64,000 nucleotides of DNA. It comes from Aurantiochytrium sp. KH105. Its lineage: Eukaryota; Sar; Bigyra; Thraustochytrida; Thraustochytriidae. This document shows, in pieces, positions 24,565-61,200 of this stretch (its first letter is position 1; each line of letters opens with the position of its first letter). The notes below the pieces were generated by a model that was not told the DNA's origin, ran no database searches, and saw nothing but the letters and a program-made list of their open reading frames with translations. The stretch is from assembly GCA_003116975.1 (NCBI GenBank), contig BGKB01000220.1:3337-67336 (forward strand), given 5' to 3'. Position numbers and translations under genes: made by a program.

Positions 24565-24600
24565 GAGCTAGCTAGCTAGCTAGCTAGCTAGCTATAGCTA
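24565..24600. repeat. (AGCT)n palindromic array
   Basis: About nine consecutive GCTA/AGCT units, fully self-complementary, hence able to form a hairpin. Confidence 0.9.
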
Positions 24601-24963: not shown

Positions 24964-24965
24964 GG

Positions 24966-25006
<41 letters not shown>

Positions 25007-25014
25007 AGCCAGGC
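24964..25014. repeat. (CAGG)n array
   Basis: About ten GGCA units followed by two diverged AGGAAGCC copies. Confidence 0.9.
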
Positions 25015-25816: not shown

Positions 25817-25880
25817 CGGCGAGGCGAGGCGAGGCGAGGCGAGGCGAGGCGAGGCGAGGCGAGGCGAGGCGAGGCGAGGC
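25817..25880. repeat. (GAGGC)n pentanucleotide array
   Basis: About 13 perfect units in the leader of the AP2 gene. A short version (GAGGC x3-4) also precedes the kinase gene near 6505-6520. Confidence 0.92.
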
Positions 25881-26106
25881 GGCGCTCAAGGGCGGTCGCG
25901 CCAGGCACGCAGGCAGGAGGCACGCAGGCCGGGCCAGGCGCGGCGGCGGGCGGGTCAGGAGCGTCCCCGAGCCCCGAGGCGGCGCCCCCTGGTTCTGTGG
26001 GGCAGTGGTGAGCGCGAGGCGCTTCCGCGCGGCGCTCAAGGGCGGCGGCGGCAGCGGCGGCGGCGAAGAAGAAGAAGAAGAAGAAGAAATAGAAGGCGGG
26101 TCGTCC

Positions 26107-44271: not shown

Positions 44272-44892
44272 GCTCCCATGAACCGCAGTCGCGCGGACCG
44301 AGCGCCGTGCCCGCGCGACGGCCCTGAACACCGGCTTCAGCGGGCCTGCGCGGCCGCCCCCCCGCGCGCGCGCGGGCGCGCGAGCGCGGGCGCGCGCGCG
44401 AGCGTCGTGCGTCGTGCGGCGCGTCGCGCTCGGACCCCCAAGGTCCCGCCAAGATGGATCGATGATGGACAGAGCGACGAATCTGGAATCTGGACGCCAG
44501 CTCGCTCGCTCGCTCGCTCGCAGACGCGAGGCCTCAAGCGAGGGCGCGCGCCCGCCCTCTTCCCGTCTCTCCCAGGCTGCGGCGCGCGACCGGCTGCGGC
44601 GCCTGGTACCTCGCCTGATCCGGGTCTGGTCGGTCTCCTTCCTTGCCTTGGGATACTGTTCGATAATACTGGCGGATTTCATGCCGATTTTATGCCGGCG
44701 TTCTATGCGATTTTATGCGTCGATTTTATGCGCACCAAACACGCAACGCGGCGCAAGCGAGCAAGCGAGCAAGCAAGCCCGCGAGAGCGCCGGACGCAGC
44801 GGGCGCAGACGCAGACGCGTACGCATTGCTCGGCAGAGCAACGCGCGGCGTCGGCGTCGCGCGCGGGAGAGCGGGCTACGGAGAGGAGCAGG
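44272..44892. promoter_or_regulatory. Divergent intergenic region
   Basis: 621 bp between the divergent starts at 44271 (-) and 44893 (+). Contains alternating GCGCGC (about 44363-44400), CTCG repeats (about 44501-44520), and three nearby copies of GATTTTATGC-type sequence at about 44676-44731. Confidence 0.45.
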
Positions 44893-46137
44893 ATGGAGAT
44901 GGCTCGGGAGACGAAGACAGCGACGATGGCTGCCGTGGCGGTGAGCGCCGCCGCGGTGCTGGGCGTGGCGGCGATGCTGGCGCGCCGCAAACGTGGCAGG
45001 GAAGAGGTGAAGCGGTTTGTCAAGTTCAAGGACGTTGCGGGCGACGCCGAGAACCCGTCCAGGAATGTTCTTGCGGTGGACTGCGAAGCGCGCAAAGTCG
45101 AGAATTGTCTCACGCACCACCGCTGCGCCTTCAAGCTCAAGCCGGCGGCCATTCGTGGCGACTCATCCACGGACCTTGTGCTCGAAGCTCTCCGGCAGAA
45201 CCATGAGATTCTTGACCGGGCCGACTTTGTCACTTGCAACCACTTCGATATCGATGCCTTCACTTGCGTCCTCGCGCTCGTGTCCCCACGGGAGCGCGTC
45301 TTGGCAAACGAGGCCGTCTTTCGTGAAACCGCACGGATCGGAGACTTTCGCGAACTGGATATTGAGCGACTCAAGGCGGGCGATGAAAACGTGCGGCGTG
45401 GCTTAGAGCTGTGCTGCTTTCTCAACACACTGGAACGCAGGGAGTTTGCCCGGCCCTTTGAAGACGGCTCGGACCCGCTCAAGTGGGACATGTTTCTTGA
45501 AGATCCCCGCGTTTGGGATATCATCGAAGGCCGAGGCCACTTGCACCGCGACGCGGATTGGGGACAAGAGTTTGATCGCGTGCTCAGCGACTGTGCTTTG
45601 ATTCGGCGGGTGCAGCACTTTCCAGATCTCGGGCTCGTCGTGATTGAAGCTCCCGAACCCGTGCATTACTACGCACTTTTTAGCGGCAATCCCGAAGACG
45701 TCGTTTTGGCGCTCTACGACGGAAATCGCTATGAGCTTGAGCAGCGCTACTCGACCTATGTCGAGCTCTGCTCGCGGCCTGTATTGCCACGTGTCTGTCT
45801 CACGCATCTTGCGAAAATGCTCAGCAAGCTGACGGGCGAGTCATGGCATGCGAACCGTTTCACAGACTCGGGCCCGCTCATGCGCATCGATAAGCCAGAG
45901 AAGAACCTGAACAAGGCGGAGCGCTACGGCCACCCTTATGAGCGACCTATTTACGCTTCCAAGCTCGACGCCGACCAGATGCTGCGTGCTGTGCAGGCCT
46001 ATCTTACCTTTGGACTTGACAATGCGGGTATCACGGGACCTGTTCCTGCGCAAGATCTTTCGTGGTCCAAGCTGCACGAACTCAATGGCAGCATCGACTG
46101 GTCAAACCTTGCTCTCGAGCCTGTTCTTGTCAAGTAG
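44893..46137 (+). CDS. Membrane-anchored protein of unrecognised family (possibly DUF6687-like)
   Basis: A 414-residue protein. Residues 12-29 are a hydrophobic Ala/Val-rich segment followed by ARRKRGR, reading as a signal anchor with the body on the basic side. The body has 'FVTCNHFDIDAFTCVLAL', reminiscent of the N-H-x-D-x-D-x motif of bacterial DUF6687-type proteins and loosely of DHH phosphoesterases, then a charged helical middle and a C-terminal domain ending ALEPVLVK. I cannot assign a reaction. The start ATG follows a 621-bp divergent spacer; the frame upstream is open but Arg-rich and in the neighbour's promoter. Confidence 0.75.
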   Translation: MEMARETKTATMAAVAVSAAAVLGVAAMLARRKRGREEVKRFVKFKDVAGDAENPSRNVLAVDCEARKVENCLTHHRCAFKLKPAAIRGDSSTDLVLEALRQNHEILDRADFVTCNHFDIDAFTCVLALVSPRERVLANEAVFRETARIGDFRELDIERLKAGDENVRRGLELCCFLNTLERREFARPFEDGSDPLKWDMFLEDPRVWDIIEGRGHLHRDADWGQEFDRVLSDCALIRRVQHFPDLGLVVIEAPEPVHYYALFSGNPEDVVLALYDGNRYELEQRYSTYVELCSRPVLPRVCLTHLAKMLSKLTGESWHANRFTDSGPLMRIDKPEKNLNKAERYGHPYERPIYASKLDADQMLRAVQAYLTFGLDNAGITGPVPAQDLSWSKLHELNGSIDWSNLALEPVLVK

Positions 46138-46436
46138 GCTTTTCATTCTTTTTTCTTCGTCCCCCCCCCCCCGCGCGCGCGCTTACTTGCCACATGATTC
46201 TCCTCGTCCATTAGTTGACTCATTGCCTGTCCTTGATCACGAGGAACACGCCCCTCTCTCTGTGCTCAATTCCGTCTGCGCATCATCACAGATCGCAGCA
46301 TGAACTTTTCTTCCCAAGGGATGCTACAAGTTGTCTCTGCCAGGTTGTTTTCCTTGCGGTACTGCTCACAGAAGAAAACAAAAAAATTCCGCGTCAGATC
46401 TTGTTTTCTGATTTTCTAAAACGAAAAGTCGTGCAA
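46138..46436. other. Convergent 3' region
   Basis: 299 bp between two stops, with a C-run then (GC)n at about 46161-46181. No gene seen. Confidence 0.5.
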
Positions 46437-47486
46437 TCAACGAACCTCCGGTCTCATACGGCTACCTAGTCTACGCAAGACGTCCTTGGGGATACGATTA
46501 AATCGTGCCCGAACCTCCATCGCGTTCACGGACCGACATGACATCGTGCCCATGTCCTGACGACCAAATTGAACATTGCCAACGTCCCCAATGGATGACT
46601 GTGCAACCTCTACAAAGCTAGTCTCAATGGCGTCGCTGGCACTCAGACGCACATCTAGACCTGAGATAAAAGGCGCTTCGACCTGAAGCTGATCCGAGCC
46701 ACGACCTCTCCCTGGAATTTCTACAAACGATACGCGTTGCCCAACCTCGGTTCCGGTCGGAGCGCCTTGCCGATCCTCTTCCTCTTCCTCTAGCGCTATA
46801 GCTTTTCCTTTAAAGTCTTCGAGATTATCGACGCGGAGAACCAGAGCAGAGGCAGACGATGGCAGGATACGGAGCGCTGGGATAACATCCTCGTACGCTG
46901 CCGAGGCGCCAAAACTAATGACGCCGGGCTGCACAGATTGAGTGGCCAATCCGCGAAGAAGGTTGCTCGTTGCGTAGAAGCGGTTCTCTTCTTCGCCAAA
47001 GACGATTTCCTTGACGTGTGCCGACGAGGTCCCTGTTCTTGCTCCAACTGCAGCATCCTCGTCCTCATGGCTTGCCGGGTCCCGAAAGATCATCGGATGG
47101 CAGGACGGCTGGCCGATCCACGCGAGCTGCTGCAGCAAGAGCGCGCTCTGCGTAACAGATGGCTGCGCGGTCTCCAAGAGACCGGGATCGACACCCTGTA
47201 GGCAAATAGCCAAGAGCTGCTGCGCCGCGGGGCACCCACCTGCGCGTCTCGCGGCGGAAATCCAGTCCACGGAAGCAAATTCGATGGAGATCCTGCCGTC
47301 TGTGACGGCGGCATGGTACTGGTCGCTCGCGAGCTTGAACCACGTCGCCGAAGACCTCCTTGCAGGCGCCTGCTTGCTCGCGAGGCCCAAGACGTCCGTG
47401 AACGTCTCGTACGCGCGGCGCACCGAGGTCTCGCCGTCGCACCACACCAGGAGGCGCGCGACGCGGGCCCCGCCGCGCAGGGCCAT
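46437..47486 (-). CDS. Conserved-looking hypothetical protein
   Basis: A 349-residue protein, MALRGGARVARLL at the start. Mixed α/β composition with no signal peptide, no membrane segment and no repeats. A Glu run (EEEEED) lies near residue 238. I recognise no family. The gene is normal in codon use and is head-to-head with the small gene at 47667, 180 bp away. The start is the first ATG of the frame, just inside CTCGC-rich leader DNA. Confidence 0.7.
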   Translation of the reverse strand: MALRGGARVARLLVWCDGETSVRRAYETFTDVLGLASKQAPARRSSATWFKLASDQYHAAVTDGRISIEFASVDWISAARRAGGCPAAQQLLAICLQGVDPGLLETAQPSVTQSALLLQQLAWIGQPSCHPMIFRDPASHEDEDAAVGARTGTSSAHVKEIVFGEEENRFYATSNLLRGLATQSVQPGVISFGASAAYEDVIPALRILPSSASALVLRVDNLEDFKGKAIALEEEEEDRQGAPTGTEVGQRVSFVEIPGRGRGSDQLQVEAPFISGLDVRLSASDAIETSFVEVAQSSIGDVGNVQFGRQDMGTMSCRSVNAMEVRARFNRIPKDVLRRLGSRMRPEVR

Positions 47487-47666
47487 GGTCCCGCCGCCGC
47501 GGGTGGGGCGTTCGCCGCCTCGAGCTCGCTCGCTCGCTCGCTCGCGCGGCGACGCGGTGCGGGCGACGAGAGTTCTTGCTTTGTGGCCTCGCCGCGCGCC
47601 GCGAAGAGGCGAGCAGTTCTGCTCCTCTGGGTCGCTCCCTGGTCTTCTATACCACCATTCGCCACC

Positions 47667-48174
47667 ATGGATAGAGATCGTCTTCGTCGTCTTCGCAAAA
47701 CCTCAACGCGCACAAGGACTCGGAGGCGGCGGAGCGCCACGTGCAGGCCGGCCGCGAGGCGCGCCAGGGCCGGAGCCGGAGGGCGAGAGGCAGATGCAGG
47801 CCGCGGGGCCCGGGGACGAGCGGCTGGTCGCGCTGCAGCGCGTGGAGCAGCTGCAGGTCGAGCGCGAGTACGAGGCGCGGCGACTGGTGGTGCTCAAGGC
47901 GCGCGAGCAGGCGAACCGCGACGTGGCGAACGAGCTGCGCTTTGGCAGCGCAGGCGATCGTCTTCGCAAACAGCCGCAAGTTTTCGCGGCGGTGTCCGCG
48001 GACCTCATGCTCGACTTTCCAGCGCACCAGGCGGAGGGGATTGTGCTCAGAGAGCAGACGGATTTGCGCGCCAAAATTGCAGATGCGACGGCGCGTGTCG
48101 AAGCCATCGATGCGGCGCTCCCGGCTGCAAATGCAGCCTTTCGCTCTTATGACCCGCGCAATCAAATTAATTGA
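47667..48174 (+). CDS. Small coiled-coil protein, possibly PDRG1-like prefoldin, frame disturbed
   Basis: The last 126 codons (from ATG 47794) are one open frame: a long helix (VEQLQVEREYEARRLVVLK), a loop with VSADLMLDFPAHQAEGIV, and a second helix ending SYDPRNQIN. This helix-hairpin-helix plan with a 'P-x3-A/E-x-I' turn resembles prefoldin-β-like PDRG1. The likely true start is ATG 47667 in GCCACCATGG, but that frame, a middle segment (NLNAHKDSEAAERHVQAG) and the main frame each differ by one base, as if two bases were missing near 47695 and 47765. Assembly error or a shorter protein from 47794 are both possible. Confidence 0.5.
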
Positions 48175-48299
48175 AATCTGCTTCGCAAAGCGTCAGGGGA
48201 AGAGGGGTCGGCCCCTCCTCTTGCCCGTAAAGGAGATGGAGACAAAGAGAGAGCGAGGTCTCGTTCGAGTCAATCAACGATCCTTTTGATTAGCCCCGC

Positions 48300-48830
48300 T
48301 TCAAAAGCTTGACAGAGCATGTGATTTAGTCAAAGTTGGCTCAAATATGGTCGCCAACTTCTTCAAAGAATTGATTTTGTCAAAGTCAAGGCTGGAGTCT
48401 TGCACGCGCACAGTATCGTTCATTCCATGTGAGATTCCAAGAAGCCAGGCATGCATGCCTTTGCACGTTTTCACTCCCAGCATGCTTGCGCGTGGCTGCG
48501 ACGATCTTCTCCCCAACGTTGAACTCTTGCCCGAGGACCATACGGTTGCGGTCGCTTTTCTTTGTAACCGCAAATACAAACCCACATGCTACTGCTTAAA
48601 GGACTTCATGATCGCGAAACGCTCGCAAGATTACGAGCGCAAGGTTATCAAGGTAACATTCTTGAATGGCCACAACACGAAATGAGGCAACTCGAGTTAC
48701 CAGACAGAGCGAATGGAGTACCCACACAGCTCTTGCTAGAATTTCGGGATCCATGTTGGGCTCGAAGATTCGATTCTTGCTCTCAATGATGCCGCGAGAA
48801 AGAGCCCCTGCACGTAGCCGAACCTTTTGT
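48300..48830 (-). pseudogene. Relic of a helical-bundle/kinase/armadillo gene tail
   Basis: On the minus strand, 48590-48830 encodes GALSRGIIESKNRIFEPNMD and FRVVAIQE...AFRDHE, clearly the segment between kinase and armadillo repeats of the genes to the right. 48300-48590 continues, in another frame, with a degraded armadillo unit (DNA like GGCTGCGACGATCTTCTCCCC...GAGGACC). No kinase domain is present. It is the left-most, oldest-looking member of the array. Confidence 0.75.
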
Positions 48831-49018
48831 GCGCGAACTAAAGCTTCCGTAACTAACTTTATACAAAGAACTAATTGCTTCTGCATTCCCTTTTTTTTCA
48901 AAAGAAACCCACTTGTTTGTCCAATCGGCGGGAAGAAGATGCCGTTCAAAAGTATGGGACTGGAAACAGACCAACAGCCGCGAGACGCGCAACTTCACGG
49001 AGATGGAGACTTCCGCCC

Positions 49019-51619
49019 TTATCCAAAACAGCCGCTACGAAGGTTTGCTTTCGCTCTTTTGGCTTGTGACATAGATGGAAAAGACTCACAAGCTCGCTTG
49101 ACTGCCTTCCGAGCTCCTTGATCTCGGAGGATCTTCTTAACGGTAGAGTTGCAGGCGAGATTTCCCAGAGCTCCGCAGGCTTGCTTCTGGACAGCTTCGC
49201 TCCCGGGATGCTTGCGCATGGCCGCTACGATCCCCTTGCCGACCTTGAGCTCTTGCCCGAGGATCTCTTGATTGCGAGCATTCTTAGCTGCGAGGCTCCA
49301 TAGAGCTCCGCAGGCCTTCTCTTGAACGATCTCACTCCCGGAATGCTTGCGCATGGCTGCGACGATCTCTCTCCCGACCTTGAGCTCTTGCACGAGAATC
49401 ACTTCGTTCCGGTCATTTGCGGCGAGATTCGCGAGAGCAGAGCATGCCTTGCTTTGCACACTTTCACTCTCGAGATGCTTGCGCATGGCCGCGACGATTT
49501 CCTTGACGAGCTTGACGTCTTGCCCGAGAATCTCCTTGTTGCGCGCATTGGCTGCAAGATTCCAAAGAGCTCCGCAGGCATAGTTTTGCACGCTTTCACT
49601 CTCAGGATGCTTGCGCATGGCCGCGGCGATCTCCTTGCCGACCCCGAGCTCTTGCACGAGGATCACCTCATTGCGGTCACTGTCAAATGTAACAGGGATG
49701 ACAAATCCACATGCTGCTGCTTGAAGGTCTTCATGGTCGCGAAACGCTTGAAATACCTCGATTACACTACTGCCGAGGTCATGTTCTTGAATGGCTGCGA
49801 CACGGAACGAGGTGCCCGACTCTCCTGTCAGAGCGAAGCGAAGCGCCCACAAAGCTTTTGCGAGAATGTCAGGATCCGTGCTGTGCTCTACGATCCGTTT
49901 TGTGCTCACAACGATGCCGCAAGAGAGAGCCTGTGCGCGCAATACATCACTACCTTTCGCATCATATTCCTGCTCGAGAATATTCCGAATTGCGTCCAAT
50001 GTGCGTGCGAGATTGCCCGTAATATCGGACAAGTCACGCACAAGACCTTGCACAAGCTCAATGCTGGCCTCTTCGACGCCGTTTCGACCGCCGCGACTTC
50101 GCGGACACGCTGACACCAGGCCGCGGATGAGTCGCGTCGACTGACGCACGTTTTTGCGGTCTTGAAACGTCTGAAGAATCTCGGAAGCGCGTGGACGATC
50201 TTGCGGGTCATGCGCCCAGCACTTTTCCATCAGACGCACAACCCACAGACGAACGTCAACATTTTCAGAGACAAGAGGTCGTTCTCTGTTCAACACTCGA
50301 GTCTCTAGATCTGAAATCGAGCGTACACTGTGCTCAAACGGCGACTTGCCATGGTAGACTTCCCACATCACAATGCCAAAGGCATAGATGTCTGCGCGTG
50401 TCGTCCACCGCGCGGGCGCCTGCAGAACTTCGGGTGCCATATAAGCAGGTGTACCCACCGATGAGACCGTGTCGGCGATGCTGCTGTTGGCCTCGAGCTG
50501 TGTGGCAAGTCCAAAGTCTGCCAGCTTGACGAGTCCAAGATCACGGCTCAGCAGAATGTTAGCTGGCTTGAGGTCTCGGTGGACGACCAACTTTCCGTGA
50601 AGGTACTCGAGGCCGCGAGCGATCTCGCGCAGAACGGCTTCCTTCTCATCAAGGGTCAGTGCTAACGTCGCGTCAGTCTCGCTCTCGTACAAGAGGTCGT
50701 CCAGCGACATGTCGCACTTGTCCATGACAAGATGAAACCGGTTCTGAATGATGCAGGTTCCAAGCAGACAGACAATGTTGTCGTGTTGGAGACCATTCCA
50801 GCTCGCGGCTTCACGCATGAGTGCCTGCTGTTCGCGAAGCTGCATGCGACGTCCGTTTGGCTTGACGCGCTTGACTGCCGTCTCGACTTCTGAACCATCG
50901 CTGCGTCGAAGTGCGCCAAGGACGACCTGGCCAAACTGGCCTTCACCGAGCACCTGCAAAGGAGCCTTGACGTAGGCTTGATCACTGCTCAAGGAAGCGG
51001 CCTCGAATTCTTCAGCCTGCACCAAACTGATGCTGAGGCGCTCCAAAGCTTGACGCTGATGACGTGTGCCAAGCTGGCCGCTGAGAACCGCGCCAAAGTC
51101 TATTTGGGGGTTGTCTTGGAGGAGCAAGATGACTTCTTCTGGGTCCTCTTCGAGTAAACCACGTTCGCGCAGCAGCTCGAGCACACCAAACAGATCATTC
51201 CGCGCATCTTCGTCGTCGTTGGCTTCTTCAGCAAGTATCTCGTCATCTTGGTCTTGTGGCGCTCCCGAGAGCTGGCGCAGTTGCAGGTCGAGCTGACAGA
51301 GTTGAAGACATGTTTGAAGATGCTGCTCGGCCTCGGTCAGCGCCTGACGAATGATTTTGGCCTGAAAGAGGAGTCGAGCCTTCACGGCAAGACCGCGACG
51401 AGCGCTGTCGCCAAAGTATGGCTTCAGGAGGTCGAGAAGGTCGCGTAGCTCCGCTTCGAGTTGAGTCACGTTGATGTCCACCTCTTGCAGCTGCTCGAGG
51501 CGAGAAGCCAAGCGCTCAAGCACGGTCTTGAGATGAGCTGCCTTTCGCTTGCAAGCAACGGCGTCCTCCAGCAGAGATACGCCTTCCCGCGCAAGCTGCA
51601 GCACAAGCGTCACGCTCAT
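49019..51619 (-). CDS. MLKL-like architecture: N-terminal helical bundle, TKL-type kinase, 4 armadillo repeats (copy A)
   Basis: A 866-residue protein, start MSVTLVLQ (the conserved start of all copies; a few extra codons lie upstream). Residues 1-120 are a predicted four-helix bundle (LLEDAVACKRKAAHLKTVLE, TQLEAELRDLLDLLKPYF, AKARLL…ALTEAEQHLQTC) with the plan of HeLo/MLKL N-terminal domains; about 130-215 are linker helices. The kinase spans about 220-500: G-loop LGEGQFGQV, Lys250 (AVK), HRD 347-349, DFG 368-370, APE 395-397, all intact. After a helical connector come four armadillo-like repeats of about 44 residues (core MRKHxxSxxVQ..ACGAL..LA.N.RN..IL). A signalling kinase, perhaps a membrane-acting cell-death executor like MLKL, is inferred; kinase identity is certain. 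Confidence 0.88.
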   Translation of the reverse strand: MSVTLVLQLAREGVSLLEDAVACKRKAAHLKTVLERLASRLEQLQEVDINVTQLEAELRDLLDLLKPYFGDSARRGLAVKARLLFQAKIIRQALTEAEQHLQTCLQLCQLDLQLRQLSGAPQDQDDEILAEEANDDEDARNDLFGVLELLRERGLLEEDPEEVILLLQDNPQIDFGAVLSGQLGTRHQRQALERLSISLVQAEEFEAASLSSDQAYVKAPLQVLGEGQFGQVVLGALRRSDGSEVETAVKRVKPNGRRMQLREQQALMREAASWNGLQHDNIVCLLGTCIIQNRFHLVMDKCDMSLDDLLYESETDATLALTLDEKEAVLREIARGLEYLHGKLVVHRDLKPANILLSRDLGLVKLADFGLATQLEANSSIADTVSSVGTPAYMAPEVLQAPARWTTRADIYAFGIVMWEVYHGKSPFEHSVRSISDLETRVLNRERPLVSENVDVRLWVVRLMEKCWAHDPQDRPRASEILQTFQDRKNVRQSTRLIRGLVSACPRSRGGRNGVEEASIELVQGLVRDLSDITGNLARTLDAIRNILEQEYDAKGSDVLRAQALSCGIVVSTKRIVEHSTDPDILAKALWALRFALTGESGTSFRVAAIQEHDLGSSVIEVFQAFRDHEDLQAAACGFVIPVTFDSDRNEVILVQELGVGKEIAAAMRKHPESESVQNYACGALWNLAANARNKEILGQDVKLVKEIVAAMRKHLESESVQSKACSALANLAANDRNEVILVQELKVGREIVAAMRKHSGSEIVQEKACGALWSLAAKNARNQEILGQELKVGKGIVAAMRKHPGSEAVQKQACGALGNLACNSTVKKILRDQGARKAVKRACESFPSMSQAKRAKANLRSGCFG
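49130..49690 (-). repeat. Armadillo-coding repeat array, 4 units (copy A)
   Basis: Four units of about 132 bp, each with TGCTTGCGCATGG and TTGAGCTCTTG or close variants on the plus strand. Confidence 0.85.
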
Positions 51620-52467
51620 CTTCTCCCGTTTCCTCGGATTCGAATTTGATTGTTGAGTTGGGATGTATTTACGATTCCATCTCAATGATCTCTTTTACGG
51701 AAGACCGGCTCTTTTCCGAACGTTTGCCTTGTTATTTTCCGACTTTATCATGATTGTCCCGGGGCGGTTTCCCAGTCCCGGCGAACGGGAGAACGGGAGA
51801 ACGGGCTGGGTCGGTGCTGCGGCTACTGGCCATGGGTGGGCAATTTCTTTCTTTCTATGATACTGGGGCCTAGGCGAAGTAGTGGGGCAGGTGGCTGGCT
51901 GGCTGTCTGGCTGTCTGCCTGGCTGCCTGTCTGCCTGGCTGCCTGGCTTGACCGCAAATGACTGTGAAGGTTGCTGAATGGTAAAAACTTGAACGAAAAA
52001 GGACTCCTTGTTTCATGAACGCTGGGCCTAGAGCTTGTGTCAAGACCATGTCGTACCAAGCTTCATGCACGAGAGAGATCGAGACTTGAAGTCCTTGCCA
52101 AATCAAGTAGGGTCGAGAACATGCTATATTATCAAATAAAAGATCATGACCGATAATTTGGGGAACGCAAAGTGAAGATTCATTAGGTCGCTTGCGCAGG
52201 TGACGCAAATCAGCACCAGCAAGTGATGGTTGTCGCTTGAAAAATACAATGCAAGAATCCTCGCAACAAACGGAGTGCTTTTGTCCGCAAGATCAAGCTT
52301 CCGCAACAATCTCCAAAGAACTTCTTGCTTTTGCATATTCTTCTTGTCATTCAGAAAGGTCACTTATCTGTCAAATCGGCGGGAGGAAGGTGCCGTTCAA
52401 ATGTATAGAGCTGAAAAGGATAACATTCGCGAGACGTACAGCTCCACGGTATCAGAGAATTTCGTCC
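51620..52467. other. Spacer between array copies A and B
   Basis: No gene. Contains a GGCT/GTCT tetranucleotide run at about 51889-51948. From about 52010 on it is related to the spacer between B and C (AGAGCTTGTGTCAAG, TCGCGAGAC or variants, and AATCGGCGGGAGGAAG at about 52373), marking the edges of the duplicated unit. Confidence 0.65.
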
Positions 52468-55400
52468 TCATCCAAAAAAGCCGCTGCGAAGATTCACCTT
52501 CGCTCGTTTGGCAACTGACATGGATGGGAAACGCTCACAAGCCCGCTGGACTGCCTCCCGAGCGCCCTGGTCTCGAAGAATTCTCGTGACGGTAGCATTG
52601 TATGCGAGATTTTCGAGAGCTCCGCACGCTTGCTTCTGGACAGCTTCACTTCTGGGATGCTTGCGCATGGCTGCAACGATCTCCTTGCCGACCTTGAGCT
52701 CTTGCCCAAGGATCTCTTTGTTGCGGTCATTGGCTGCGAGTCTCCAAAGAGCTCCGCAGCCCATCATTTGAACGCCCTCACTCCCGGAATGCTTGCGCAT
52801 GGCTGCGACAATCTCCTCCCCGACATGAAGCACTTGCCCGAGGATCTCTTGATTTCGAGCATTGTTGCCTGCCAGATTGCGAAGAGCCGAGCATGCAAAT
52901 TTTTGCACGCGATTACTCCCAGTATGCTTGTGCATAGCCGCAACAATGTCCTTGCCGACCTTGAGCTCTTGCCCGAGGATCACACAGTTGCGATCATTGG
53001 TTGCGAGAATCGAAAGAGCTAAGCATGCAATCCCTTGGACGATTTCACTCCCAGAATGCTTGCGCATGGCCGCGACGATATCCTTGCCAACCTTGAGCTC
53101 TTGCCCGAGGATCTCCTTGTTACGAGCATTATTGGCTGCGAGGCTACTAAGAGCTCCGCAGGCATACCTCTGCACGCTTCCACTCCCGGCGTGTTTGCGC
53201 ATGGCCGTGACAATCTCGATACCGACCATAAGCTCTTGCCCGAGAATCTCTTGGTTACGAGCAATATTGCCTGCGATATTTGTAAGAGCTCCGCAAGCCA
53301 TCTCTTGAACGCTTTCACTTCCAAGATGCTTGCGCATGGCCGCGACGATCTCCTTGCCGACCTTGAGCTCTTGCCCGAGGATCTCCTTGTTACGAGTATT
53401 CAAGGCTGCGAGATTATTAAGAGCTCTGCAGGCATACTTTTGCACGCTTGTACTCCCGGCATGTTTGCGCATGGCCGCGACGATCTCCTTGCCGACCTTG
53501 AGATCTTGCCCGAGGATCTCACAGTTGCGAGCATTGGCTGCGAGAATCGAAAGAGCTCCGCAAGCATCTTCCTGGACAGATTCACTCCCGGGATGCTTGC
53601 GCATGGCCGCAACGATCTCCTTGCCGACCTGGAGCTCTTGTACGAGGATCTCCTTGTTGTGCGCATTGGCTGCAAGATTCATAAGAGCTCTGCAGGCCAT
53701 ATCTTGTACGCTTTCACTCCCAAGATGCTTGCGCATGGCCGCGACGATCTCCTTGCCGACCCCAAGCTCTTGCCCGAGAATCACCTTGTTGCGGTCACTG
53801 TTGTATGTAACAGGGATGACAAATCCACATGCTGCTGCTTGAAGGTCTTCATGGTCTCGAAACGCTTGAAATACCTCGACCACATTACTGCCGAGGTTAT
53901 GCTCTTGAATGGCTGCGACACGGAACGAGGTGCCCGTCTCTCCTGTCAGAGCGAAGCGAAGCGCCCACAAAGCTTTTGCTAGAATGTTGGGATCCGTGCT
54001 GTGCTCCAAGATCCGTTTTGTGCTCACAATGATGCCGCGAGATCGAGCCTCTGCGCGCAATACATCACTACCTTTCGCATCATATTCAAATTCCTGCTCG
54101 AGAATATCCCGAAGAGTGTCCAACGTGCGCACGAGATTGCCCGTATACTCGGACAAGTCACGCACAAGACCTTGCACGAGCTCAATGCTGGCATCTTCGA
54201 CGCCGCTTCGACCGCCGCGACTTCGCGAAAACACTGACACCAGACCACGAATGAGTCGCGTCGACCGCCGCACATTCGTGCGGCCTTTAAATGTCTGAAG
54301 AGTCTCGGAAGCGCGTGGACGATCTTGCGGGTCATGCGCCCAGCACTTTTCCATCAAACGCACAACCCACGGACGAACGGCAACCTCGTCGGAAATGATG
54401 GGTCGCTCTCCGCTCAACACCCGAGTCTCTAGATCTGAAATCGAGCGCATACTGTGCTCAAACGGCGGCTTGCCATGGTAGACTTCCCACATCACAATGC
54501 CAAAGGCATAGATGTCTGCGCGTGTCGTCCATCGCGCGGGCGCCTGCAGAACTTCGGGTGCCATATAAGTAGGTGTACCCACGGATGAGACCGTGTCGGC
54601 GATGCTGCTGTTGGCCTCGAGCTGTGTGGTAAGTCCAAAGTCTGCCAGCTTGACGAGTCCAAGATCACGTCTCAGCAGAACGTTGACTGGTTTGAGGTCT
54701 CGGTGGACGACCAACTTGCCGTGAAGGTACTCGAGGCCGCGAGCGATACCGCGCAGAATGGCTTCCTTGTCGTCGAGAGTCAGTGCTAACGTCGCGCCGG
54801 TCTCGCTCTCGTACAAGAGATCGTCCAGCGACATGTCGCACTTGTCCATGACAAGATGAAAACGATTCTGAATGATGCAGGTTCCAAGTAGACAGACAAT
54901 GTTGTCGTGTTTGAGACCATTCCATCCCGCGGCTTCACGCATGAGCGCCTGCTGTTCGCGAAGCTGCATGTGGCGACCGCTTGGCTTGACGCGCTTGATT
55001 GCTGCCTCGACTTCTGAACCATCGCTGCGTCGAAGTGTGCCGAGGACGACCTGGCCAAACTGGCCTTCACCAAGAACTTGCAGAGGGGCCTTGATATAGA
55101 CTTGATCACTGTTCAGGGAAGCGGCCTCGAGCTCTTCAGCCTGCGCCAGACTGATGCTGAGGCGCTCCACAGCTTGACGCTGATGACGTGTGCCGAGCTG
55201 GCCGCCGAGAACCGCGCCAATGTCCATGTCGGGGTTGTTTTGAAGTAGCGAGATGACTTCTTCTGGATCCTCTTCGAGTAAACCACGTTCGCGCAGCAGT
55301 TCGAGCACACGAAACAGATCATTCCGCGCATCTTCGTCGTCGTTGGCTTCTTCAGCAAGTATCTCGTCATCTTGGTCTTGTTGCGTTCCCAAGAGCTGGC

Positions 55401-55758
55401 GCAGTTGCAGGTCGAGCTGACAGAGTTGAAGACATGTTTGAAGATGCTGCTCGGCTTCGGTCAATGCTTCACGAATGGCCTTGGCCTGGAAAAGAAGACG
55501 AGCTTTTGCAGCAAGGCCGCGACGAGCACAGTCGCCACCAAAGTATGGCTTCAGGAGGTCCAGAAGGTCGCGCAGCTCCGCTTCGAGTTGAGTGACGTCG
55601 ATGTCTGCCTCTTGCACCTGCTCGAGGCGAGAGGCGAACTGCGCAAGCACGGTCTGGAGGTGCGCTGCCTTTCGCTTGCAAGCCCTGGCTTCCTCTAGGA
55701 GGGATGCGCCGTACCGCGCGAGCTGTATCACGAGAGCCACGCCGGAGATGGCGTCCAT
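52468..55758 (-). CDS. MLKL-like architecture: helical bundle, kinase, 9 armadillo repeats (copy B)
   Basis: A 1096-residue intact paralogue, start MDAISGVALVIQLARYG. The N-terminal bundle (to about 125), the linker and the kinase (G-loop LGEGQFGQV, AIK, HRDLKPVNVLL, DFGLTT, APE) are nearly the same as copies A and C. It differs by nine armadillo repeats instead of four, very alike at DNA level, so the array grew inside the gene. The end (KQACGALENLAYN...KVNLRSGFFG) is shared with copy C. The N-lobe and connector are closer to C than to A, suggesting a late B/C duplication or gene conversion. No introns. Function as for copy A; more repeats would give a longer binding surface. Confidence 0.88.
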   Translation of the reverse strand: MDAISGVALVIQLARYGASLLEEARACKRKAAHLQTVLAQFASRLEQVQEADIDVTQLEAELRDLLDLLKPYFGGDCARRGLAAKARLLFQAKAIREALTEAEQHLQTCLQLCQLDLQLRQLLGTQQDQDDEILAEEANDDEDARNDLFRVLELLRERGLLEEDPEEVISLLQNNPDMDIGAVLGGQLGTRHQRQAVERLSISLAQAEELEAASLNSDQVYIKAPLQVLGEGQFGQVVLGTLRRSDGSEVEAAIKRVKPSGRHMQLREQQALMREAAGWNGLKHDNIVCLLGTCIIQNRFHLVMDKCDMSLDDLLYESETGATLALTLDDKEAILRGIARGLEYLHGKLVVHRDLKPVNVLLRRDLGLVKLADFGLTTQLEANSSIADTVSSVGTPTYMAPEVLQAPARWTTRADIYAFGIVMWEVYHGKPPFEHSMRSISDLETRVLSGERPIISDEVAVRPWVVRLMEKCWAHDPQDRPRASETLQTFKGRTNVRRSTRLIRGLVSVFSRSRGGRSGVEDASIELVQGLVRDLSEYTGNLVRTLDTLRDILEQEFEYDAKGSDVLRAEARSRGIIVSTKRILEHSTDPNILAKALWALRFALTGETGTSFRVAAIQEHNLGSNVVEVFQAFRDHEDLQAAACGFVIPVTYNSDRNKVILGQELGVGKEIVAAMRKHLGSESVQDMACRALMNLAANAHNKEILVQELQVGKEIVAAMRKHPGSESVQEDACGALSILAANARNCEILGQDLKVGKEIVAAMRKHAGSTSVQKYACRALNNLAALNTRNKEILGQELKVGKEIVAAMRKHLGSESVQEMACGALTNIAGNIARNQEILGQELMVGIEIVTAMRKHAGSGSVQRYACGALSSLAANNARNKEILGQELKVGKDIVAAMRKHSGSEIVQGIACLALSILATNDRNCVILGQELKVGKDIVAAMHKHTGSNRVQKFACSALRNLAGNNARNQEILGQVLHVGEEIVAAMRKHSGSEGVQMMGCGALWRLAANDRNKEILGQELKVGKEIVAAMRKHPRSEAVQKQACGALENLAYNATVTRILRDQGAREAVQRACERFPSMSVAKRAKVNLRSGFFG
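52590..53800 (-). repeat. Armadillo-coding repeat array, 9 units (copy B)
   Basis: Nine units of about 132-135 bp; most carry CTTGCGCATGGCCGCGACGA and CCTTGAGCTCTTGCCCGAGG or near-identical sequence on the plus strand. Confidence 0.9.
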
Positions 55759-55890
55759 TGTTTCCCCCCTTCCTCCGATTCGTGTTTGTTGAGTGGCACG
55801 TGCAACACACCCATTTTGCTTTGTTGGCCGTAGGCTAGTCTTTCCGCTAATAACAATCTAGGGTATACCCTCGGTCATCACAGACTAGGC
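55759..55890 (-). promoter_or_regulatory. Conserved 5' flank of copy B
   Basis: Upstream of the start codon, shared with copy C (58927-59055): TCCTCCGATTCGTGTTTGTTGAG, GGCACGTGC (an E-box-like CACGTG), GGCTAGTCTTTCCGCTAATAACA and TCTAGGGTA. Conservation outside the coding region marks either a promoter or simply recent duplication. Confidence 0.5.
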
Positions 55891-56307
55891 GGAAAAACTT
55901 CAAATTTCCATTTGAGCCAAAAGAGCTTGTGTCAAGTCAAGGTAGTACCAAGGTTTATACACATGCCAGGACTTGAAGCGCTCTTGAAAAGTACAAGTAG
56001 ATTCGAAAACATGTTGCCATCAAATACAAGATCACGAACAAAGAACACAAAGTAAAGTTTCACAGGTGGCCCAAATCAGCACTAGAAAGTGACGATTTAT
56101 CGCTTGGATGAATCGAAGCAAGGAATTTTCGCAAGCGGAGTGATTATGTCTGTTTTTGCAATTATCTCCAAGAATTACTTGCTTTTGCACTCCTGTTATA
56201 CTTATTTGTCAAATCGGCGGGAGGAAGACGCTGACCAAAATTACGGAGCTGAAAATAGTACAACATTCGCGAGACGTGCAGCTCCACGGTATCAGAGAAT
56301 TTCGTCC
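55891..56307. other. Spacer between array copies B and C
   Basis: No gene. AT-richer than the coding copies and related to the A-B spacer (TCAAATTTCCATTTGAG, GACTTGAAG, AATCGGCGGGAGGAAG). Confidence 0.6.
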
Positions 56308-58926
56308 TCATCCAAAAAAGCCGCTGCGAAGATTCACCTTCGCTCGTTTGGCAACTGACATGGATGGGAAACGCTCACAAGCCCGCTGAACTGCCTCCCG
56401 AGCGCCCTGGTCTCGAAGAATTCTCGTGACGGTAGCATTGTATGCGAGATTTTCGAGAGCTCCGCACGCTTGCTTCTGGACAGCTTCGCTCCCAGGATGC
56501 TTGCGCATGGCCGTGACGATCTCCTTTCCGACCTTGAGCTCTTGCCCGAGGATCTCTTTGTTGCGGTCATTGGCTGCGAGACTGCGAAGAGCTCCGCAAG
56601 CACTTTTCTGGACAGATTGACTCCCGTGATGCTTGCGCATGGCCACAACAATGACCTTGCCGACCTTGAGCTCTTGCCCGAGGATCTCGTTGTTGCGAGC
56701 ATTGCTTGCGAGATTCCAAAGAGCTCCGCAAGCATCTTCCTGGACAGATTCACTCCCGGGATGCTTGCGCATGGCCGCAACGATCTCTTTGCCAATCTTG
56801 AGCTCTTGTACGAGGATATCTTCATTGCGAGGGTTTGATGAAAGATTCAAAAGAGCTCTGCAGGCATACCTTTGCACGCTTTCACTCCCAGGATGCTTGC
56901 GCATGGCCGCGGCGATCTCCTTGCCGACCCCGAGCTCTTGCCCGAGAATCACCTTGTTGCGGTCACTGTCGTATGTAACAGGGATGACAAATCCACATGC
57001 TGCTGCTTGAAGGTCTTCATGGTCTCGAAACGCTTGAAATACCTCGACCACATTACTGCCGAGGTTATGCTTTTGAATGGCTGCGACACGGAACGAGGTG
57101 CCTGACTCTCCTGTCAGAGCGAAGCGAAGCGCCCACAAAGCTTTTGCTAGAATGTCGGGATCCGTGCTGTGCTCCAAGATCCGTTTTGTGCTCACAATGA
57201 TACCGCGAGATCGAGCCTCTGCGCGCAATACATCACTACCTTTCGCATCATATTCAAATTCCTGCTCGAGAATATCCCGAAGAGTGTCCAACGTGCGCAC
57301 GAGATTGCCCGTAATATCGGACAAGTCACGCACAAGACCTTGCACGAGCTCAATGCTGGCATCTTCGACGCCGCTTCGACCGCCCCGACTTCGCGAAAAC
57401 ACTGACACCAGACCACGAATGACTCGCGTCGACCGCCGCACATTCGTGCGGCCTTTAAATGTCTGAAGAATCTCGGAAGCGCGTGAACGATCTTGCGGGT
57501 CATGCGCCCAGCACTTTTCCATCAAACGCACAACCCACGGACGAACGGCAACCTCGTCGGAAATGATGGGTCGCTCTCCGCTCAACACCCGAGTCTCTAG
57601 ATCTGAAATCGAGCGCATACTGTGCTCAAACGGCGGCTTGCCATGGTAGACTTCCCACATCACAATGCCAAAGGCATAGATGTCTGCGCGTGTCGTTCAT
57701 CGCGCGGGCGCCTGCAGAACTTCGGGTGCCATATAAGCAGGTGTACCCACCGATGAGACCGTGTCGGCGATGCTGCTGTTGGCCTCGAGCTGTGTTGCAA
57801 GTCCAAAGTCTGCCAGCTTGACGAGTCCAAGATCACGGCTCAGCAGAACGTTGGCTGGCTTGAGGTCTCGGTGGACGACCAACTTGCCGTGAAGGTACTC
57901 GAGGCCGCGAGCGATACCGCGCAGAATGGCTTCCTTGTCGTCGAGAGTCAGTGCTAACGTCGCGCCGGTCTCGCTCTCGTACAAGAGATCGTCCAGCGAC
58001 ATGTCGCACTTGTCCATGACAAGATGAAAACGATTCTGAATGATGCAGGTTCCAAGCAGACAGACAATGTTATCGTGTTGGAGACCATTCCATCCCGCGG
58101 CTTCACGCATGAGCGCCTGCTGTTCGCGAAATTGCATGTGGCGACCGCTTGGCTTGACGCGCTTGATTGCTGCCTCGACTTCTGAACCATCGCCGCGTCG
58201 AAGTGCGCCGAGGACGACCTGGCCGAACTGGCCTTCACCGAGCACCTGCAAAGGAGCCTTGACATAGGCTTGATCACTGCTCAAGGAAGCGGCCTCGAGC
58301 TCTTCAGCCTGCGCCAGACTGATGCTGAGGCGCTCCACAGCTTGACGCTGATGACGTGTGCCGAGCTGGCCGCCGAGAACCGCGCCAATGTCCATGTCGG
58401 GGTTGTTTTGAAGTAGCGAGATGACTTCTTCTGGATCCTCTTCGAGTAAACCACGTTCGCGCAGCAGTTCGAGCACACGAAACAGATCATTCCGCGCATC
58501 TTCGTCGTCGTTAGCTTCTTCAGCAAGTATCTCGTCATCTTGGTCTTGTTGCGTTCCCGAGAGCTGGCGCAGTTGCAGGTCGAGCTGACAGAGTTGAAGA
58601 CATGTTTGAAGATGCTGCTTGGCTTCGGTCAATGCTTCACGAATGGCCTTGGCCTGGAAAAGAAGACGAGCTTTTGCAGCAAGGCCGCGACGAGCACAGT
58701 CGCCACCAAAGTATGGCTTCAGGAGGTCCAGAAGGTCGCGCAGCTCCGCTTCGAGTTGAGTGACGTCGATGTCTGCCTCTTGCACCTGCTCGAGGCGAGA
58801 GGCGAACTGCGCAAGCACGGTCTGGAGGTGCGCTGCCTTTCGCTTGCAAGCCCTGGCTTCCTCTAGGAGGGATGCGCCGTACCGCGCGAGCTGTATCACG
58901 AGAGCCACGCCGGAGATGGCGTCCAT
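56308..58926 (-). pseudogene. MLKL-like architecture gene with one nonsense codon (copy C)
   Basis: This would be an 872-residue paralogue: start MDAISGVALV, N-terminal bundle, kinase with AIK, HRDLKPAN, DFG and APE, connector, four armadillo repeats, same end as copy B. The codon for the Trp in PARWTTRAD, just past APE (residue 410), is TGA (plus-strand TCA at 57697-57699) where copies A and B have TGG. Everything else stays in one frame. As it stands translation would stop inside the kinase C-lobe, leaving a bundle plus truncated kinase, so it is either a very young pseudogene, a polymorphic null or a base-call error. Confidence 0.8.
56430..56965 (-). repeat. Armadillo-coding repeat array, 4 units (copy C)
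   Basis: Four units of about 132 bp in the same order as copy A. Confidence 0.85.
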
Positions 58927-59055
58927 TGCCTCCCCCCTTCCTCCGATTCGTGTTTGTTGAGTTGGCACGTGCTACACCCCTATTTTTCTCTGTTGGCCAT
59001 AGGCTAGTCTTTCCGCTAATAACACTCTAGGGTAGACCTCCTCGGTCATCGCAGA
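58927..59055 (-). promoter_or_regulatory. Conserved 5' flank of copy C
   Basis: Matches 55759-55870 almost base for base, including GGCACGTGC and GGCTAGTCTTTCCGCTAATAACA. Confidence 0.5.
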
Positions 59056-59799
59056 CTATAGGCCTATACTAGGCCTATCCATTCCTTTTTTACTTTTGAT
59101 CGAAAGATGACTAATTGGTTCATGAAGACTCGGCTTCAAATTTCCATTTGAGCTGAGACTTGCGTGAAGTTCATGTAGTATCGAGATCCATATACATGCT
59201 AAGATTTGAAGCGCTCTTGATAAGAGCGCAAACAGGTTCGAGAAAGAGCTGGCATCGAGTAGAAGATGATGATCGATGTATTTTGAGAAAGGAAACTTGA
59301 GTTTCATGAAGTAGTTTGCTGTGTTATTCATCACAAGGGATCTGCTAGGTGGTTCCTTGATTGAAGGAAACCGAGCAAGACTTTCTCGCAAATGATGGAG
59401 TCCTGGTTCCCGTGTCTTCAATTGTGGCAGATACGTTTACTTGCTTCAAATATTGTTTTGCATTTCTTGTTCTTGCAGCGAGTTATGTGAAATACTTGCC
59501 AACGAAAAAGGTCTCTTGAAAGATGATTTTGTTCTTCAAGGAGCCAGCCGGCGCAAATGAGGCTTCGTGCTGATCACGACAGTCACTCACATCAAAGCAA
59601 CTCGAAGCGCTAATAAAACACGAGAACAACTTTCTCCGCAGCGATCCTCTCCCGCACGCGCGATTGTCTTGAACTCACAGAGAAGATCGGCAGTAGGCCC
59701 GTATACTCACGAGCGATCCCCTGCGCTGCGTTGTAATGAATAAGTGCTGCTTTTGTTTCGTCCGTTTTCCTGCATGTGCCTTCTTTTTCCGTCTGTGCT
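59056..59799. other. Remnant of another array spacer, then unassigned sequence
   Basis: 59130-59230 keeps the spacer motifs TCAAATTTCCATTTGAGC and TTGAAGCGCTCTTGA found at 55903-55985, so the duplicated unit once extended, or still partly extends, to the right of copy C. Beyond about 59440 nothing is recognised. Confidence 0.5.
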
Positions 59800-61200
59800 T
59801 TACGTCCTGTCTGTGGTCTCGTGCCCGCCTTGCTGTCCTTGCTCTTCTTTGTCTGAGACTGCGCCATCTTCAGCTTCTCCTTCCTCTTCATCTTTGCCAC
59901 TCTGGCGACGGGATGCGTGCAGAACAAATGTAAAGAGAGGTTCTTCGGGCGACGAAACAAGCTCTGTCGACTCAAATCCTGCCTCGAGCGAAAGACTTTG
60001 CCACTTTTCAAGACTTAAACCCGCAACAGCAAGTGGACTTGGATCTTTAGGACCAGGACTTGGGACCCCCAGACGTTGCGCCGCCCAGATGACGACGGGA
60101 TCGTCACCGGATCCTTTATATCTGTCGCTTCCTGAACGGCAGCGAAGCACGACCTCGGCTGCGTCGACAGTTTGGCAAAGAGAAAGTGCTGCTGTGTCCG
60201 CAGAGGCCGGAGCTTGGGGAGCGCAAATGTCGACGAAGATCACATGGTCTGCCAGCGCGCAGCAGCGCTCCAAATCGTGCAAGGCAGCGTGCTCGAGACT
60301 TTCAGAGACCCCGTCACCGCCAATCTTTCCCGCTGTGACAAGCGTCACGTCGTAAACGTCCGTAATACGCGTCGACGCCAAGTAATCTGCGAGACTCAAC
60401 GTCTCAAGAAACAAGGGCTTGCGTAGCGACCCGGCCTGGGGACCTTGCGCCTGAAGCTCCAGCACACGACTCACAAGTGCTTGCGTCGCCGCGGCATGAT
60501 GGGGCACGCCAACGAGAAGCATGCCATCGCACGCATGCATGAGATCTGCGGTGAGTACATTTTCGAGCATATCCGACCCCCAAAGCGCGAGCAGACGCGA
60601 CCGTGCTTTTCGAACCTCGTGATCATCCGTTTTGCGGAGCGCGTCGAGAATGGCTTGGTGGACAACCGTTGCCACGGATGGACGATGCAGCCAGGCCTGG
60701 ACGGACTCTACACACCGCGCCAGCGTCCGAGGTTTGCCGCTCGAAGACTGCGAGCCGTCCGCTTTCTTCGACGTGACTGCTTGCCAGAGCTGTGGTGCGA
60801 CCTCCGGCAAGTTCGCGAACCGGCGAAAGACTCTACTGCTCAAGTCGAGCGTGCGGGCCTCTTCAAGCGCCTCGAGAGCACATTTGGCCTCGTCTTCGTC
60901 AAGACGCGATTTGCGCAACAATTGCAAGCCTTGGTAGAACCGCAAAAGGCCGCAGATTTCCTCTGGCGTCTCGAAGGCCTCGTCGCTTGGGGTCTGCTTT
61001 GGATCCTGGGATGATTCTTTCGTGGTTGCAATCCCGTTGCCGCCTCGTTCACCGCTGAGCACGTGCAAAAGCGAAACTGCGGATCTTCCTCGCACCTGGA
61101 AGCTCGTGTCTCCGAGGCGTCGTCGAAACGAGAGCACTCTGCACGAGGCTTCCTTGGCCGCTCTCGCTTGTTCTTGCGTCAAGCCGAGCGAGTCCGCCAT
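59800..61200 (-). CDS. Hypothetical protein
   Basis: A 466-residue protein from MADSLGLTQEQ (an upstream in-frame ATG adds 19 Arg-rich codons). The N-terminal half is helical and charged. The second half alternates hydrophobic strands and helices (MHACDGMLLVGVPHHAAAT, VYDVTLVTAGKIGGDGVSES, ADHVIFVDICAPQAP), suggesting a Rossmann-like α/β fold. The C-terminus is Glu/Asp/Lys/Gln-rich. No family recognised. Head-to-head with the nucleotidyltransferase gene, 354 bp away. Confidence 0.75.
   Translation of the reverse strand: MADSLGLTQEQARAAKEASCRVLSFRRRLGDTSFQVRGRSAVSLLHVLSGERGGNGIATTKESSQDPKQTPSDEAFETPEEICGLLRFYQGLQLLRKSRLDEDEAKCALEALEEARTLDLSSRVFRRFANLPEVAPQLWQAVTSKKADGSQSSSGKPRTLARCVESVQAWLHRPSVATVVHQAILDALRKTDDHEVRKARSRLLALWGSDMLENVLTADLMHACDGMLLVGVPHHAAATQALVSRVLELQAQGPQAGSLRKPLFLETLSLADYLASTRITDVYDVTLVTAGKIGGDGVSESLEHAALHDLERCCALADHVIFVDICAPQAPASADTAALSLCQTVDAAEVVLRCRSGSDRYKGSGDDPVVIWAAQRLGVPSPGPKDPSPLAVAGLSLEKWQSLSLEAGFESTELVSSPEEPLFTFVLHASRRQSGKDEEEGEAEDGAVSDKEEQGQQGGHETTDRT

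Follow-up and report, generated by a model that had tools for sequence, protein, structure and literature searches.

A multigene family of kinases with hypervariable armadillo repeats, candidate recognition proteins for variable ligands, in the thraustochytrid Aurantiochytrium

A cluster of related genes in Aurantiochytrium sp. KH105, lying in a stretch of 64,000 nucleotides that was analysed as a whole (here the window; contig BGKB01000220.1, positions 3,337 to 67,336, forward strand), encodes proteins in which a predicted helical N-terminal domain (NTD) is followed by a protein kinase and a C-terminal array of armadillo (ARM) repeats. One face of the last helix of these repeats is hypervariable, the arrays of several genes differ in length between alleles, and in the kinase-bearing genes this face has an excess of nonsynonymous change. 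On this sequence evidence the cluster would belong to a multigene family of kinases that recognize variable ligands, a reading to which we give about an even chance of being right, and such recognition kinases might plausibly have an immune role.

The analysed genome comprises 76 Mb in 367 contigs, and the window sits on the contig labeled C220 (other contigs are named likewise). An earlier note, made from the letters of the window, had described two intact genes (p1 and p2), a copy with a nonsense codon (p3) and a relic, and this is borne out by the open reading frames (ORFs) and by searches of the same genome; its observation of the cluster is confirmed and its interpretation as a whole, a counterpart of the cell-death kinase MLKL with an ARM sensor, is partly supported. 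In both p1 and p2 the order is NTD, kinase and ARM repeats. The Pfam family Pkinase matches p1 and p2 (E 1.5e-52 and 1.9e-49), and the C-terminal ARM repeats that the note had proposed are matched both by ARM_LRRK2, the best ARM family (5.7e-17 and 4.4e-34), and by Arm (4.7e-15 and 1.3e-20). The third gene, p3 (58926-56308, minus strand), is listed as 409 + 450 amino acids (aa) on either side of a single in-frame TGA, and its two pieces, searched separately in Pfam, contain the same domains as p1 and p2. The features are as follows, in window coordinates, with hidden Markov model (HMM) and Tandem Repeats Finder (TRF) among the sources.

49019-51619, minus strand: gene p1, 866 aa, NTD (residues 1-212), kinase (222-483) and ARM repeats (ORF, Pfam, catalytic-position alignment)
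50984-51619, minus strand: p1 NTD, residues 1-212 (NTD alignment)
50171-50956, minus strand: kinase domain of p1 (residues 222-483) with all catalytic positions present (Pfam, catalytic-position alignment)
49155-49676, minus strand: p1 ARM array, 132-base tandem units (TRF, HMM units)
52468-55758, minus strand: gene p2, 1096 aa, NTD (residues 1-215), kinase (227-488) and ARM repeats (ORF, Pfam, catalytic-position alignment)
55114-55758, minus strand: p2 NTD, residues 1-215 (NTD alignment, own-genome searches)
54295-55080, minus strand: p2 kinase domain, residues 227-488 (Pfam, PDB sequence search, catalytic-position alignment)
52616-53797, minus strand: array of p2 ARM repeats, hypervariable on the helix-3 face, with 10 HMM hits here and 17 in the other allele (HMM units, TRF)
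57697-58926, minus strand: p3 first piece, NTD and most of the kinase, ending at the in-frame TGA (ORF, Pfam, own-genome search)
56308-57696, minus strand: p3 second piece, C-terminal part of the kinase and ARM repeats, tandem units at 56434-56961 (ORF, Pfam, TRF)
48422-48817, minus strand: relic, a fragment of the kinase-to-ARM stretch and the first ARM units, with one TAA (own-genome search with p2)

A stretch of another contig, C9:520500-537309, is collinear with window 44431-60445 and is read as the other haplotype of the cluster. There the third gene (C9:533464-535809) has no stop, the nonsense codon being limited to one haplotype, and because the same gene is intact on the other haplotype the p3 copy looks like a null allele. 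The relic, which aligns with p2 residues 567-698 at C220:51758-52153 (window 48422-48817), is present in both haplotypes (C9:524439-524840 in the other), with a TAA in each.

The variability of the ARM tail was measured on 301 units of at least 40 columns, kept from 383 aligned HMM hits; these are 273 distinct units as protein and 294 as DNA, and the per-column figures come from the 294. Units are 44-45 residues long. Columns 15, 18, 19, 22, 25, 26 and 29 have entropies of 2.7-3.5 bits and the interleaved columns 16, 17, 20, 21, 23, 24, 27 and 28 only 0.2-1.3 bits, and the four most variable columns of the whole unit (19, 25, 15 and 29) all fall within the seven-column set. These seven lie on one helical face: over columns 14-29 the moment of the entropies peaks at 100 degrees (permutation p 0.0003), and it is weaker over columns 2-12 (p 0.08) and 32-44 (p 0.04). 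Periodicity of this sort is expected of any amphipathic helix with an exposed face, and it is the level of variability that is unusual. Within p2, the stretch that Arm matches best (residues 814-829, profile positions 25-40 of 41) coincides with unit columns 13-28, which would correspond to helix 3, the final helix of the repeat. In importin-alpha and beta-catenin, helix 3 lines the concave groove, and its face is conserved there. By analogy the hypervariable face would line such a groove, and each array would therefore present a different binding surface. The framework around it is far more constant: eight p2 units in the window share 82% identity outside the helix-3 face and 22% on it, and for 15 units of the other p2 allele the figures are 90% and 32%.

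Array length also differs between alleles, with 10 versus 17 ARM hits in p2, 12 versus 5 in C16:117k/C41:543k, 11 versus 7 in C164/C231 (where C231 is frameshifted) and 3 versus 4 in C16:298k/C41:363k, while C29 and C48, which are 62% identical and candidate alleles, have 31 and 47. In 500-base windows the identity between haplotypes is 78-89% over the p2 array in one alignment and 79-92% in another that overlaps it, and it is 92-99.6% in the remaining windows except for 88% at 44431-44931.

Selection on the helix-3 face was estimated by tree-based counting in a core set of 230 units, without those of C34, C258, C6, C15, C55 and C4, and the ratio of nonsynonymous to synonymous rates (omega) was 1.07 on the face and 0.37 elsewhere. 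First tests on pairs of units (2.85, p 0.018; 1.36, p 0.158; 1.57, p 0.014) were replaced because the columns had been chosen on the same data. In the holdout that took their place, columns were picked in one gene group and tested in the other (142 units from kinase-bearing genes, 159 from the others), using disjoint close unit pairs at 6, 10 and 15% distance (8, 12 and 22 pairs). Within columns 14-29 both groups pick the identical seven most variable columns. At the three distances, the counts of nonsynonymous and synonymous changes (N:S) on the helix-3 face of the kinase genes were 14:0 (p 0.030), 32:2 (ratio of the two per site, pN/pS, 5.6, p 0.010) and 90:12 (pN/pS 2.1, p 0.005), the corresponding ratios outside this face being 0.76, 0.79 and 0.51; when these genes were split by haplotype, the ratio at 15% was 2.1 in both (p 0.018 and 0.050). 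Recombination, small counts and the correlation of the tests are caveats on these pN/pS values, which moderately support diversifying selection in the kinase-bearing genes. The hypervariable face, the allelic change in array length and this excess support the earlier description of the ARM tail as sensor-like.

The same data bear on a simpler explanation, that these are ordinary tyrosine kinase-like (TKL) ARM signaling kinases, tandemly expanded, whose length and groove variation reflects slippage and relaxed constraint with no recognition involved, which we consider possible although somewhat unlikely. Several observations weigh on its side and against ligand recognition. Repeat slippage by itself can alter array length, and ARM counts are equal between the alleles of p1, C25/C71 on the plus strand, C85/C83, C34/C258 and C6/C15. 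Of the 29 arrays that contain at least three units, only 10 include pairs of units with 85% identity or more (27/105 pairs in C9 p2, 62/300 in C184, 38/666 in C48 and 0/28 in window p2). Columns outside helix 3 are variable as well, such as 12 (2.9 bits), 9 (2.7), 32 (2.6) and 35 (2.5), and when the seven most variable columns are taken from the whole unit they differ between the gene groups, including 11 and 12 in the kinase genes and 12 in the others. Omega on the face is about 1 overall and no single column is convincingly above 1 (column 29 reaches p 0.03, uncorrected and on short branches only), so that relaxed constraint is a possible cause. The other (ARM-only) genes have no excess (1.72, 0.84 and 1.16, none significant), and with the haplotypes taken apart two of six tests reach p 0.05, the other four giving 0.078, 0.051, 0.393 and 0.123. 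Set against this explanation are the groove, which is conserved in importin-alpha and beta-catenin and here holds the four most variable columns, the pN/pS above 1 on columns picked in the other gene group, and the omega of 0.37 off the face, from which it follows that the arrays are still under selection. Precedents for ordinary kinases of this kind exist, in that Phytophthora infestans has a TKL kinase, PITG_10645, with ten ARM repeats at its C terminus (PMC3019232), and both positive and strongly relaxed purifying selection have been described for protein repeats in general (PMC5120217).

The local amplification that the earlier note had pointed out extends over the genome, as judged by Pfam and by searches with p2 and the NTD. 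Because only the best candidates were scored, the own-genome match counts are lower bounds: at least 74 matches with p2, and at least 34 with the NTD alone at E 0.1 or better. There are 132 kinase matches, many of them paired across contigs at equal or near-equal score, and hence both haplotypes have apparently been assembled. NTD-bearing loci number 12, not all intact, the allele pairs being inferred from similarity and contig pairing: p1, p2 and p3 (C220/C9), C16:117k/C41:543k, C25:49k/C71:41k, C25:52k/C71:42k, C164/C231, C85:86k/C83:88k, C290/C61, C34/C258, C16:298k/C41:363k and C6/C15. At C25:49k/C71:41k the gene is spread over different frames in both copies, and at C164/C231 in one copy (C231). 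In one frame of 1116 codons (C290:27510-30857, L028) the NTD is joined directly to ARM repeats with no kinase, a fusion which suggests a modular NTD. Other frames encode ARM repeats alone, the longest with 2053 codons (C48, 47 HMM hits); one of 678 codons (L030, C85:441588-443621) has, by eye, a hydrophobic C-terminal stretch resembling a membrane anchor. Broken NTD relics lie at C164:79293-79858 and C231:77944-78567, on the opposite strand to the nearby paralogue, and further broken copies of the NTD are found next to C16:298k and C41:363k. The 12 NTD-bearing loci, the relics and the ARM-only frames suggest that the family evolves by birth and death. In own-genome searches, matches with the NTD were confined to this family except for one at E 0.087, and viral contigs scanned with the NTD gave 15 pattern matches and no relatives.

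In the kinase domain, 11 catalytic positions were aligned to p2 (two G-loop glycines, the VAIK Lys, HRD, the catalytic-loop Asn, DFG and the APE Glu), and none of the 11 is missing from p1, p2 or the first p3 piece, in agreement with the earlier view of a catalytically complete kinase. The positions were read in 22 kinase sequences, representing 11 loci in two haplotypes. The DFG aspartate is retained in both copies at seven of the 11 loci and missing in both alleles at the other four: C25:52k/C71:42k has NYG in place of DFG; C34/C258 has NFG, and HHD for HRD; C16:298k/C41:363k has GFG, Gln for the VAIK Lys, HGA and no aligned G-loop; and C6/C15 has NFE, and CGD for HRD. That both alleles agree in this loss speaks for four retained pseudokinases rather than random decay. 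A G-loop glycine is changed in one copy at C25:49k, and C231, which is frameshifted, shows HRH in the place of HRD and lacks the G-loop in that frame. No signal peptide or transmembrane segment is visible in p1-p3 by eye (no predictor was used), and the proteins of the family are probably intracellular.

When the p2 kinase alone was searched against PDB sequences, RIPK1 was nearest (1.6e-31), closely followed by an EGFR entry (3.3e-30) and then other tyrosine kinases, and the label TKL-type given to the kinase rests on these nearest sequences together with general kinase classification. With the whole of p2 the best match was LRRK2 (1.2e-36), which led because its three stretches add up in this sum; LRRK2 was dropped as the nearest kinase once the kinase-only search placed RIPK1 first. 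A derivation of kinase and ARM repeats from a LRRK2-like ancestor, a ROCO protein, with the NTD an unrelated coiled coil, would fit that match, the PDB match of the ARM part (LRRK2 again best, 1.4e-12) and the leading place of ARM_LRRK2 among the ARM families. We regard it as very improbable, as LRRK2 is not among the best 60 PDB sequences for the kinase alone, the families listed for p1 and p2 include no ROC-COR or LRR, and in both proteins the kinase lies before the ARM repeats.

The NTD, about 215 residues long and predicted to be helical, was compared in an alignment of 18 sequences that includes allelic pairs (A2), with 32-93% identity to p2 and 11 invariant columns. Averaged hydrophobic moments peak at about residues 6-25, 26-50, 56-75, 91-110, 141-160 and 186-210, the best angle being close to 100 degrees for some of these windows only, and the net charge over residues 126-215 is -17, so that the domain is read as amphipathic helices around an acidic linker. 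The earlier note saw in it a four-helix bundle with a brace-like linker and, in bundle plus kinase, the plan of MLKL and of plant and fungal HeLo-type cell-death kinases. With amphipathic segments and two all-helical AlphaFold models (residues 1-215 and 1-120, built from the three window copies only) to go by, bundle and brace remain a prediction. The models are of low confidence (pLDDT, the predicted local confidence, 48 and 66), probably because there is no deep alignment, and hence give neither an MLKL-like fold nor a confident unrelated one; Foldseek found no match with either (best E 2.7 and 1.3).

As to the MLKL/HeLo fold, no Pfam family was significant in a scan of the 18 NTDs. MLKL_N matched three of them below significance, at best with E 0.34 and 10.8 bits against a cut-off of 27, and three consensus NTD queries gave no MLKL_N match. 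The best match aligns residues 10-146 of L023 with profile positions 4-139 of 142, and residues 10-143 of its allele L018 are matched with E 1.2; inspection of both NTDs confirmed this end-to-end register, which is how a true remote match would look. Other families scored better across the 18 NTDs, namely WXG100 (0.0019, two members), EXOC6_Sec15_N (0.0024, eight members) and PqqD (0.013, nine members), and EXOC6_Sec15_N outscores MLKL_N in L018 and L023 themselves (0.094 and 0.072). Twenty shuffles of the L023 NTD that preserve its hydrophobic pattern served as a control, and they reach E 0.0011 against unrelated models; MLKL_N is absent from the best 25 of the 35 families that they match. 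HeLo, HeLo-like, RPW8 and MCAfunc are absent from the best 25 of 32 families in the NTD scan, and the six sequences returned by a PDB profile search with the NTD, all with E of 0.17 or worse, include no MLKL, HeLo or RPW8. A search of the genome with PF22215 gave no candidates, and neither did one with PF19584, which carries little weight because its controls gave no match either. The profile comparisons thus yielded nothing significant for the proposed fold, and the MLKL reading of the NTD is neither demonstrated nor refuted.

If that reading held, the proteins would be all-in-one executors of the MLKL/HeLo type, in which the kinase keeps the NTD bundle and brace in check until ligand binding by the ARM repeats frees them to reach the membrane. 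We hold this to be unlikely. It is consistent with the order of parts in wheat Pm13, where a four-helix bundle and a helical brace precede a kinase with all key residues (PMC10951266), with the end-to-end MLKL_N alignment in the two allelic NTDs, and with the amphipathic NTD segments together with further helices before the kinase (137-157, 165-174 and 180-214) in the low-confidence model, where pLDDT is 64-74 over 141-180 only. It is also consistent with the four kinase loci lacking the DFG aspartate in both alleles, as pseudokinases would, and with RIPK1 as the nearest solved kinase, although tyrosine kinases come close behind. The insignificant NTD profile and PDB matches to MLKL, the failure of the consensus queries, the better EXOC6_Sec15_N scores, and the low confidence and lack of Foldseek matches of both models argue against it, as does the active appearance of the p1-p3 kinases, unlike that of animal MLKL. 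Less probable still, and put forward only as a quite unlikely possibility, is that these proteins are all-in-one death receptors of a lineage other than animals, plants and fungi. Each would unite an MLKL/HeLo-type four-helix bundle, a switch formed by the kinase or pseudokinase, and an ARM sensor that is hypervariable, with repeat shuffling as the source of diversity in a polymorphic multigene family.

For the preferred reading, kinases that recognize variable ligands, a working scheme can be outlined. A pathogen product, an altered host protein or conspecific non-self would bind the ARM groove, and binding would cluster or unlock the protein. The catalytically complete kinase, or in some paralogues a pseudokinase switch, would transduce the event, with the helical NTD serving as a module for oligomerization and output. 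Whether that output would be cell death or an ordinary signaling response is not decided by the sequence.

Elsewhere in the window, about 31 kb from the cluster, a frame of 777 aa (15220-17553, minus strand) has Roc (E 3.8e-16), COR-A (1.1e-12) and a C-terminal TIR domain (9.9e-14) and hence is of the ROCO-TIR type. NACHT-like frames are found in the genome with 29 matches (best E 2.8e-12), and the same family matches in 14/14 controls; these frames and the ROC-COR-TIR gene in the same window mean that other receptor-like genes are present. The genome also has PUFA-synthase-like frames, the best scoring 930 bits and all below the cut-off of 1010; they fit a thraustochytrid without being specific to one, as this family matches in 11 of 14 control prokaryotes too. 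The cluster is adjoined on its low-coordinate side by a DUF6687 protein (E 2.8e-74; 44278-46137, plus strand), beside which lies a gene for an OTU-type protease (42319-44682, minus strand). The window also contains a 298-base tandem repeat of 2.1 copies (1-626), an AAGGC array of 15.8 copies (22924-23002) and a strong AT skew (0.469) across the 2 kb of 24001-26000.

Parts of this architecture have parallels in known systems. Pairing of a kinase with ARM repeats is not new, since P. infestans has a TKL kinase with C-terminal ARM repeats, and in that oomycete clustering of kinase genes is commonest in the TKL group, which includes predicted inactive kinases (PMC3019232). The kinase concerned, PITG_10645 of oomycete TKL subfamily 1, is a stramenopile TKL kinase with C-terminal ARM repeats from a clustered group, and in this resembles the window family with its putative TKL kinases, but it is the one ARM-bearing kinase listed in what is available of that paper, which describes for it no NTD, hypervariable groove or allelic length change (PMC3019232). 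LRRK2 contains the nearest solved ARM repeats by sequence, and differs in having ROC-COR, LRR and WD40 domains in another order and in not being the kinase nearest to p2. Wheat Pm13 and the plant MLKLs (PMC10951266), like animal MLKL (PMC9950082, PMC12881547), have a helical N-terminal domain, linker helices and a kinase, and the kinase residues of Pm13 are complete as in p1-p3; no ARM tail is described for any of them in the accessible portions of these papers, and the likeness of the window proteins to them is one of plan. Relations between fungal HeLo proteins and MLKL have been described (PMC9815663, PMC12881547). If the NTD were MLKL-like, executors of the necroptosis type would extend to another eukaryotic lineage, the stramenopiles.

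With respect to recognition, the closest parallels are receptors with hypervariable repeats, which are described as NOD-like receptors (NLRs) with WD, ANK or TPR repeats or as ROCO proteins with LRRs. Among the open-licence literature matches listed, there was no kinase with a groove-diversified ARM array and no title on thraustochytrid immune receptors or a protist MLKL. Fungal NLRs with WD, ANK or TPR repeats of high internal conservation (HIC), which are candidate non-self receptors, share with the window family conserved repeats, length polymorphism and variable positions on one repeat face, concave in these NLRs and presumably so in the window family (PMC4986451). Internal repeat identity over 85% across 100 aa marks HIC repeats, and the repeat-number polymorphism typical of HIC receptors is seen in p2 (10/17) and C16/C41 (12/5). 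They differ in joining a NOD core to WD, ANK or TPR repeats where the window family has a kinase and ARM; the word armadillo does not occur in the main text of that paper (0 occurrences), and the family lists of p1 and p2 contain neither NACHT nor NB-ARC. The ROCO-LRR candidate immune receptors of brown algae, also stramenopiles, show repeat shuffling and positively selected sites on the concave face, with LRRs on a ROC-COR GTPase and not ARM repeats on a kinase (PMC11378527). If the reading proposed here is true, an ARM array with a diversified groove on a kinase would add both a sensor scaffold and an output to these systems, the sets of natural ARM grooves on a constant framework would be of interest to designers of peptide binders, and an all-in-one receptor of this type would be a kinase-based counterpart of the NLR receptors, with ARM repeats as the variable binding surface.

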